From the NCBI GenBank assembly GCA_028289425.1, contig JANQPL010000005.1, positions 124,001-188,000 of the forward strand: a stretch of DNA of 64,000 nt, in the 5' to 3' direction. This document shows positions 61,612 to 63,665 of the stretch, piece by piece. This DNA comes from Alphaproteobacteria bacterium (GTDB lineage: Bacteria > Pseudomonadota > Alphaproteobacteria > JANQMY01). Made by a program: the position numbers and the translations under genes. How positions within the stretch are numbered: position 1 is the stretch's first letter; each line of letters begins with the position of its first letter. The notes under the pieces were generated by a model. That model was given only the letters and a program-made list of their open reading frames with translations. It made no database searches and was not told the DNA's origin.

Positions 61612-62817
61612 CTAGGCTGACTTTTTGTCCTTCGGCGACATGTAACGTAGCACGAGCGGCATCATGCGGCGCAAGATCCGTCCGGCAACCCGTCGCAGAC
61701 CGGTCACCTTTGGCGTGTTGCGCGCGGTGGCAAACTGATCGATTCCCACCTCTTCCCGCATATCGGCCGAGATCATGTTGACCGGCGTGTCCAGCGGAAT
61801 ACCGGTGCCGTCGGCAATGCGCACCATGCGTTCGAAATTGCCGATCACCCCTGCCGCATCGACGGTAGCGTCGGGCCCCAAAACACGCACCAGTTTCTCG
61901 CGCGCCGAGGTAATGGCATTATCACCGCCCGAAACTGTCGCTTCGGCAAAGGCGGTGAGTTCCGCCCCGCCTTCGACGCCCCCATCGCCCTCCCCCATGA
62001 CGGCATGAAGATCAACTTCTTGGTTGTTGGAGTCGCTGCTCACACGGCGCATCATCGAATGGGCGGTCGTTCAGTAAAAGCACTCATTGATCGACGACAC
62101 GCGCGCCGCGACCAACTCTATCTGCGGGCGGCTGAGCGCGCGCCCCGGATCCGCATCCATCTTTGTGAGCTGCCCCGTCGGTATGTATTGCACATCCGAC
62201 AGTTTCTTCATTTGGCGCACGCAATCGGGCACCAGACTCATGGCGCGGATCACATTCGGTGCCCCCGATCCGGCATAGAGATCTGCATCTTCTTCCGTTA
62301 GCTTGTCTTGCGGGATCATGGGCACAAAACCGACGCCGGGTTCCGCCCCGGCTGGTCTGTAGCCGGACGGTTCGCCGGGCACAGGTTCCGGAAGGGTTTC
62401 AACCGGCAAGCTCAACGCGCGGTGAAACTGATCGACCGAAGTGAGCAACACAGTCACGCCCAGCAGCTCTACATAATGGCCGTCAGTCAACTCACCGGAG
62501 AATGTTTCTTCGATCCAGCTTTGTGTAATGCGCGTTGCGTCGGTCACCAAACGATGGACCGCATCCACGGCCGCGTAAGGCAAGATGTCCTGAACCGTGC
62601 TGTGCTTGCCTTCGAACATGGACGGGCTGAGGGCTTGCTTGCGGAGCGCACAAAATTCGCAGGAACGTGCGTTACGAACCTCCGCAGCAATGGCAATTTT
62701 TTCCGTACCGGTCCACCAGCAGCCGGGTTCAGCGAGCCACGCCCAAAAATTTCGAAAGGCATTCGGAAGATCTTCGCGAATTGGCAATTCCGTTGGCATG
62801 TTCACGAAGGCATTCAT
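61612..62817 (-). CDS. AhpD-like CMD-domain protein, probable selenoprotein (in-frame TGA at 62073-62071)
   Basis: Read through one TGA, this is a 401-residue protein with two carboxymuconolactone-decarboxylase (AhpD-like) domains. The first has SCEFCALRK, a CxxC. In the second, ELVAARVSSINECFY is followed by TGA (residue 249), then TTAHSMMRR in the same frame. AhpD redox sites read C-x-x-C-x3-H, so the TGA stands exactly at the resolving Cys: CFYU-TTAH. No base is inserted or lost, and 150 coherent codons follow the TGA, so decoding as selenocysteine is the best reading. AhpD-like selenoproteins have been reported in genome surveys. Likely a peroxidase or disulfide reductase. ATG at 62817 follows AGGTG. 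The alternative is a single Cys-to-stop mutation. Confidence 0.7.
62032..62050 (-). promoter_or_regulatory. Candidate bacterial SECIS hairpin
   Basis: On the minus strand, about 20 nt after the TGA, GCGCCG (62050-62045), loop UGUGAG (62044-62039) and C-A-GCG-A-C (62038-62032) can fold with one mismatch and one bulge. The apical loop lies 27 nt downstream of the TGA and has a G at its second position, within the range described for bacterial SECIS elements. Not computed. Confidence 0.35.
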
Positions 62818-62903
62818 TTTGTTCACCTAGGCATTCCTCTTGGGTATTCCTTTTGCGATTCCACGGATCTATATCAGCGCACGGACGAGTAAATTGCAAT
62901 GCC

Positions 62904-63665
62904 TCATAGACTCGAGAAATCCGGGTCGCGTTTTTCGCGGAAGGCTGACAATGCTTCTTTGTTAGCTGGGCCGCCCATGAGGTCGGCGAGACCCTGGTTC
63001 TCTGCTTTTGCCGAGGCGCGCATTTGATCTTTTAATGGATCCATAACCAGTTTCTTCGTCATCACCAGCGAGGCCAAAGGTAGCGCGGCAAGTTTCCGCG
63101 CTTGATCCATCGCACGGAGCATGAGCTGATCTTGCGGCAACACTTCCAACGCCAGGCCTGCATCCACACATTGTTGGGCAGACCACCATTCGGCCGACAA
63201 AAGGAACCATAGGGCGTTTTGGCGCCCCATGAGTTTAGGGAATGTGAACGTGCTGGCCGCTTCCGCCGTCAGGCCCAACGCCGAGAACGGGCAGCGCAAG
63301 CGCGCGCCTTCCGCCATATAGGTAAGATCGGCAAGCCCGCATATCGTGGCGCCGATGCCGGCGCCCACACCGTTGACGGCGACAATGAAGGGCTTGGGAA
63401 AATCGAAGATCGCGTCCAGCAAACCCGGAAAGCCGTGTTTGGGCTTATCTTGCGGGCGGCCCATTTCCATCAAGTCCGCCCCGGCGGAGAATGCGCGCCC
63501 CGCTCCTGTCAAGATCAGCACACGTACTGAGCTGTCCGATGCGGCGTCCAGAAAGGCATCTGCAAGCTCGTCCATCAGCTTCGCACTGAATGCGTTGAGA
63601 GCCTCCGGACGATCCATTTCGACGATGCGGATCCCCCCTTCATTTTTGATGTTCAGTGTTTCCAT
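62904..63665 (-). CDS. Enoyl-CoA hydratase / isomerase family protein
   Basis: A 253-residue crotonase: EMDRPEALNAFSAKLMDEL, VLILTGAGRAFSAGADLMEMG (oxyanion-hole block) and AVNGVGAGIGATICGLADLTYMAEGARLRCPF. The Glu positions of classical hydratases are only partly filled, so an isomerase or hydratase role cannot be decided. It precedes a thiolase gene transcribed the same way upstream, with a terminator between, and fits fatty-acid or acyl-CoA catabolism. Confidence 0.88.
   Translation of the reverse strand: METLNIKNEGGIRIVEMDRPEALNAFSAKLMDELADAFLDAASDSSVRVLILTGAGRAFSAGADLMEMGRPQDKPKHGFPGLLDAIFDFPKPFIVAVNGVGAGIGATICGLADLTYMAEGARLRCPFSALGLTAEAASTFTFPKLMGRQNALWFLLSAEWWSAQQCVDAGLALEVLPQDQLMLRAMDQARKLAALPLASLVMTKKLVMDPLKDQMRASAKAENQGLADLMGGPANKEALSAFREKRDPDFSSL

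Follow-up and report, generated by a model that had tools for sequence, protein, structure and literature searches.

A predicted tandem AhpD-fold selenoprotein of family NF041238 with a variant base in its SECIS-like hairpin

Bacterial AhpD-like selenoproteins with a CxxU motif, a kind of protein that a preliminary description of the present locus had named as known, have been described in several families, including TIGR01926, NF041047, a CMD-like group and NF041238 (PMC13188914). NF041238 (full name ‘alkylhydroperoxidase-related (seleno)protein’) is an AhpD-related CxxU selenoprotein that was earliest reported as Sargasso Sea ‘hypothetical protein 1’ (PMC13188914, a 2026 review; PMC1088965, 2005). 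The Sargasso Sea selenoproteome paper, which counted a few cysteine (Cys) homologs of this protein, offered no functional evidence for it except the CXXU motif (PMC1088965).

Two further groups serve for comparison. The AhpD-like protein PA0269 has a proton relay composed of Glu36, Cys48, Tyr50, Cys51 and His55, a spacing of 12-2-1-4 (PMC3141380). Sestrin2 is an AhpD-domain pseudo-dimer, in which the catalytic Cys is kept in the N-terminal domain only (PMC4674687), and fused AhpD dimers of bacteria have been put forward as analogues of sestrins (PMC11429811).

Here we describe an NF041238 gene from an alphaproteobacterial genome of 5.42 Mb (20 contigs, 99.75% complete), located in a stretch of 64,000 nucleotides (the window). 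The kind of gene is already known, because NF041238 has been described before (PMC13188914, PMC1088965); what goes beyond routine annotation is only the SECIS departure of the window copy and the sestrin-like architecture of the protein.

The gene and its family

The gene and the features discussed below are as follows.

61612 to 62817, minus strand: predicted selenoprotein gene, NF041238 family (AhpD_rel_CFYUT), 400 sense codons and a single in-frame TGA
62074 to 62817, minus strand: part before the selenocysteine (Sec) codon, N-terminal AhpD-like domain with C53-x-x-C56, lacking the relay His
62071 to 62073, minus strand: TGA codon of predicted Sec249, in the context C246-x-x-U249-x3-H253
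61615 to 62070, minus strand: part after the Sec codon, the rest of the second AhpD-like domain and a C-terminal tail
62035 to 62053, minus strand: putative SECIS hairpin in the conserved place, apical loop CGUGU at 62046-62042, 24 nt after the UGA, stem weakened
62048, minus strand: variant base G, T in 111/111 other family genes
62904 to 63665, minus strand: enoyl-CoA hydratase/isomerase family gene, upstream and co-directional, 77 bases before the GTG start

As the preliminary description had stated, an in-frame TGA (62073-62071) lies between two segments in the same phase and yields C-x-x-U-x3-H. The first segment comprises 248 codons from an ATG at 62817 (a GTG at 62826 is an alternative possible start), and also carries the opening helices of the second domain with relay residue Glu234; the second comprises 152 codons and ends at a TAG (61614-61612). 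The read-through product has 401 residues, with C246-F-Y248-U249-T-T-A-H253 around the TGA. The window gene is of the long form, its C-terminal helix spanning about 35 residues; this helical and basic tail (61615-61730, minus strand) occurs in a subset of family members, which have 145-170 residues after Sec, as against 100-131 in the rest.

The read-through protein matches the NCBIfam model NF041238 at 455.8 bits (cut-off 175, E=1.1e-136) over model positions 1-356 of 357, and the family motif C-x-Y-U-T, with TGA at U, is present as CFYUT. Matches to related models are weaker: TIGR01926 gives 29.5 bits (cut-off 81.8), and Pfam CMD gives 21.7 bits, slightly below its cut-off of 23. Ordinary gene calling would divide such a protein at the TGA, and mechanical ORF calling does split 61612-62817 there, as had been anticipated; the expectation that standard annotation would do the same does not extend to NCBI annotation, which can recognise the gene now that the family is known. 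We regard it as very probable that this is one gene, in which the UGA at codon 249 is predicted to be read as Sec, and which encodes a single-chain tandem AhpD-fold redox protein.

Selenocysteine machinery and relatives

The machinery needed for this reading (selA, selB, selD and tRNA-Sec), for which a genome search had been proposed, is present in a single cluster of the same genome (L011, C19:372000-390000), with every component above its cut-off: tRNA-Sec at 83 bits (anticodon TCA), selD at 341, selA at 581 and selB at 300 bits. Another NF041238 gene, with a TGA of its own and 51% identity to the window gene, lies in the same cluster. Adjoining the tRNA-Sec and this second copy is a peroxiredoxin-like gene (L011:8417-9202, minus strand) with an in-frame TGA in GHW-U-PYC; its NCBIfam matches are weak (best 38.8 bits), and it possibly lies outside current models. 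Likewise next to the selenoprotein cluster is the gene of a protein of 528 residues (L011:5602-7185, minus strand), which has a CGSK motif and is thioredoxin-like at its N-terminus; it is kept at three loci, and its only NCBIfam match is a weak one to MauD.

Relatives were collected from two sources. Among 385 genomes sampled evenly from the class, 26 carried a total of 47 genes that pass the NF041238 cut-off; each gene has exactly one TGA, which falls at the U of C-x-[YF]-U in 47/47. Named genomes were scanned with a peptide pattern that lies before the Sec site, so that there was no bias for TGA over Cys; this yielded 81 genes at 80 loci (the best 80 of 363 relatives), again with TGA at the column in 81/81. 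These represent Alpha-, Beta- and Gammaproteobacteria, Myxococcota (‘Deltaproteobacteria’), Binatota, Acidobacteriota, Chloroflexota and Actinomycetota, six phyla with the first three classes counted as Pseudomonadota. The two sets overlap and combine into 112 non-redundant family genes, in which the Sec column, a single alignment column, is TGA in 112/112. A Cys form was thus absent from all of the roughly 128 genes (112 non-redundant, the named-genome part being the best 80 of 363 relatives), suggesting that NF041238 is stricter in its selenium dependence than most families, though rare Cys forms may exist beyond the best 80 of 363 relatives. A phylum sample at E 1e-30 held no family member except in the genome itself, and hence added neither Cys nor Sec cases; the order and family samples comprised one other genome only. 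Among four nearby AhpD proteins outside the family, the codon at this column is TGC in three and TGA in one. We also noted an AhpD-like protein with CFY-(TGA)-T (L040) that scores 65.8 bits, below the NF041238 cut-off, and is a candidate AhpD-type selenoprotein outside the family.

Presence of NF041238 tracks the Sec trait. In the class sample, tRNA-Sec was detected in 25/26 family-bearing genomes and in 33/359 others (Fisher p=3e-22), and the one family-bearing genome without a detected tRNA-Sec (G365) has selB at 438 bits.

The codons after the TGA are protein-like, as had been claimed. Compared with its ortholog L079, the window gene shows 69% identity before and 66% after the TGA, with dN of 0.23 and 0.26, respectively, and near-saturated synonymous change on both sides. 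By this comparison, the half after the TGA appears constrained like the half before it, and the read-through frame is evidently no chance product. The window gene and L079 are sisters in the tree (SH-aLRT 100), the L011 paralog groups with L081, L057 and L084, and another alphaproteobacterial genome (G092) retains both copies; because of these separate groupings, the two copies of the genome are judged to be old paralogs. Elsewhere, two NF041238 genes lie close together within one locus in a member of Dehalococcoidia (L158) and in L062 (G297), likely through tandem duplication.

The enoyl-CoA hydratase/isomerase gene upstream is a possible operon partner of the window gene; it is absent at L079, which has no neighbours in common with the window. 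Neighbourhood clustering of the family loci, in which a conserved operon was sought, yielded none and gave no hint of a substrate; CoA-metabolism genes recur in a minority of loci only.

Two readings dispense with selenocysteine altogether. That the TGA is an ordinary stop, dividing two genes or marking a pseudogene, fits the split produced by mechanical ORF calling, but this is highly improbable in view of the TGA in all relatives examined, the Sec machinery in the genome, the coherent predicted fold of the read-through product and the constraint on the downstream sequence; a TGA confined to one strain, with decay downstream in relatives, was to have counted against a selenoprotein, and the downstream half instead shows no decay in relatives. 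That this genome has reassigned TGA to some other residue, Trp for example, is a reading in favour of which nothing was found; it can scarcely be entertained, given that Cys is what aligns there outside the family and that the genome has a complete Sec system. The selenoprotein reading, by comparison, draws support from the NF041238 match, the Sec machinery, the TGA shared by all relatives examined and a covarying family hairpin.

The family hairpin and the variant base of the window copy

Across the family, a hairpin of the form GCTC-CGTGY-GAGC follows the Sec codon, its CGUGY loop beginning 24 nt after the UGA in a near gap-free alignment of 112 genes; the second loop position is an invariant G. 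Among 44 sequences, 87% of cells are paired, compared with 31-47% for slid partners; both sides have changed in four of the seven pairs. Three Gammaproteobacteria carry a compensatory change from CTC..GAG to CTT..AAA, and the conserved Leu encoded within the hairpin is always CTC, or CTT with compensation. In three relatives (L098, L099, L105) another inner pair of the stem is mismatched, and six use a different register, so some stem mismatches seem to be tolerated. Conservation and covariation argue that this hairpin guides UGA decoding at the family level, and by extension it would do so in the window copy. An Rfam scan of the window gave no match, nor would bacterial SECIS elements be expected to score against a general model.

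The hairpin put forward in the preliminary description, with a UGUGAG loop about 27 nt after the TGA, was rejected as the SECIS element: it would place the invariant loop G in a pair, and relatives lack such a fold. An alternative fold of the window copy (-4.4) is essentially this hairpin, and a T>G difference at 62048 is what makes it favourable there.

This base sets the window copy apart. Its stem is GCGC/GAGC where the family has GCTC/GAGC, and the G at 62048 both creates a G.A mismatch in the stem and produces CGC, placing Arg257 where Leu (CTC/CTT) is otherwise invariant. The 44-nt segment folds at -6.0 kcal/mol, compared with -14.2 for the L011 paralog and -9.5 for L079, and is not better than shuffled sequences (z +1.3). 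A published bSECIS model calls for an upper stem of 4-16 bp with an MFE at or below -7.5 kcal/mol (PMC13188914), together with a G within the first two positions of a loop of 3-9 nt and a spacing of 16-37 nt (PMC13188914 Fig. 2), and some selenoprotein genes fail it (PMC13188914). The window copy agrees with the model in loop and spacing (CGUGU, G at the second position, 24 nt) and departs from it in stem and energy (-6.0, inner G.A mismatch), whereas L079 reaches the energy limit. The SECIS prediction that had been suggested as a check therefore recovers a conserved, covarying hairpin in the family, and in the window copy a version damaged at one base (-6.0 against the -7.5 kcal/mol limit). 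Local stem probability is 0.00-0.05 in the window copy versus 0.98-1.00 in paralog and ortholog, and the canonical stem is nearly absent from the predicted ensemble of the window copy, a prediction limited by long-range competition, such that even the intact hairpin of the paralog is near zero in a 48-nt ensemble and visible only in the local fold.

Since the G at 62048 breaks a conserved SECIS pair and replaces an invariant Leu, Sec decoding of the window copy is less certain than that of the family; if it is not a sequence error, the G probably makes decoding less efficient. Such an error, with the true gene conforming to the family consensus, is somewhat unlikely: in a gene that is clean elsewhere, a single base departs from the consensus of RNA and protein alike, as an error would, but with 20 contigs and 99.75% completeness the assembly appears sound, and assemblies of such quality seldom contain substitution errors. 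It is unlikely, too, that the window copy of this selenoprotein family is in an early stage of loss through damage to the SECIS and an Arg in a conserved helix, leaving the L011 paralog active. The presence of that second paralog, the restriction of G at 62048 and of the Leu257 replacement to one gene in 112, and the collapse of the local stem would all suit such a loss. Against it, the gene has no frameshift and deviates at only three of 49 highly conserved columns (one shared with the ortholog, one an R-to-K change), constraint is similar on either side of the TGA, and the mismatched and register-shifted stems of relatives point to tolerance. Apart from base 62048, then, the alignment gives no sign of decay, and a selenoprotein gene with a weakened hairpin remains our preferred reading. 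The departure provides a natural experiment on the tolerance of SelB for stem damage.

Predicted fold, proposed chemistry and comparison with known systems

An AlphaFold2 model of the read-through product (70 sequences) has a pLDDT of 94.7 and a pTM of 0.94, and consists of two fused AhpD-like helical domains whose fold is coherent across the TGA. The second domain superposes on the single-domain AhpD-like structures 6K40 (Z 14.8), 2PRR (14.4) and 2OYO (Z 14-15) in VIA-align, and a profile match to 6K40 reaches 1.7e-17; the best full-length match is human Sestrin2 (5T0N, Z 16.7, 240 residues, rmsd 3.2).

Relay residues E234, C246, Y248, U249 and H253 all lie in the C-terminal domain, are conserved in 110-112 of 112 genes and have the AhpD spacing of 12-2-1-4, with Sec in place of Cys at U249. 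In the AhpD proton relay, this place is taken by the second Cys (Cys133 of the M. tuberculosis protein; PMC3141380); the earlier description of the site as the ‘resolving cysteine’ claims more than this position shows. The N-terminal C53xxC56, without a relay His, is kept in 103/112 family genes. Because of the full relay in the C-terminal domain and the N-terminal C53xxC56, the protein may be a thiol peroxidase or disulfide reductase that works through Sec. In the mechanism we propose, UGA codon 249 would be decoded as Sec by SelB and tRNA-Sec, with the hairpin 24 nt downstream as guide; the U249 selenolate, activated by the Glu/His relay, would most likely make the attack, reducing an organic hydroperoxide or a partner disulfide; C246 would resolve the intermediate by closing a selenenylsulfide, which is then reduced; and the N-terminal C53xxC56 dithiol may pass electrons. 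A more sweeping proposal, which we consider quite unlikely as a whole, is that NF041238 comprises Sec-only, sestrin-like single-chain AhpD pseudo-dimers in which electrons flow from the N-terminal CxxC to the C-terminal CxxU, the variant SECIS (inner G.A) of this genome supporting regulated or low-level decoding of one of two paralogs.

To a previously uncharacterised family, the present analysis adds a family-wide SECIS with covariation, a strong structural model and an assignment of relay residues. The window gene shares with NF041238 ‘hypothetical protein 1’ the match to the curated model, the CxxU with TGA and a SECIS-like hairpin downstream, and differs from the family as reported (PMC1088965) in its unusual SECIS base and long C-terminal form; none of the Cys homologs counted there has a counterpart above the NF041238 cut-off in our sample. 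The TIGR01926, NF041047 and CMD-like selenoproteins (PMC13188914) likewise carry CxxU in an AhpD-type protein, but belong to other families.

With AhpD-like proteins (2PRR, 6K40, 2OYO, PA0269 2O4D and M. tuberculosis AhpD), the window protein has in common the helix-turn-helix active site and the five-residue proton relay; these are single-domain and Cys-based, whereas the window protein has two fused domains and Sec for the second Cys. Human Sestrin2 (5T0N, 5DJ4) resembles it in having two AhpD domains fused in one chain as a pseudo-dimer, at 8% identity; the acidic DDYDY hinge, which in sestrins replaces the Cys site of the C-terminal domain, is absent from the read-through protein, whose C-terminal domain has CFYU. 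In Sestrin2 the active domain is N-terminal and lacks the second Cys, while in the window protein the full relay lies in the C-terminal domain.
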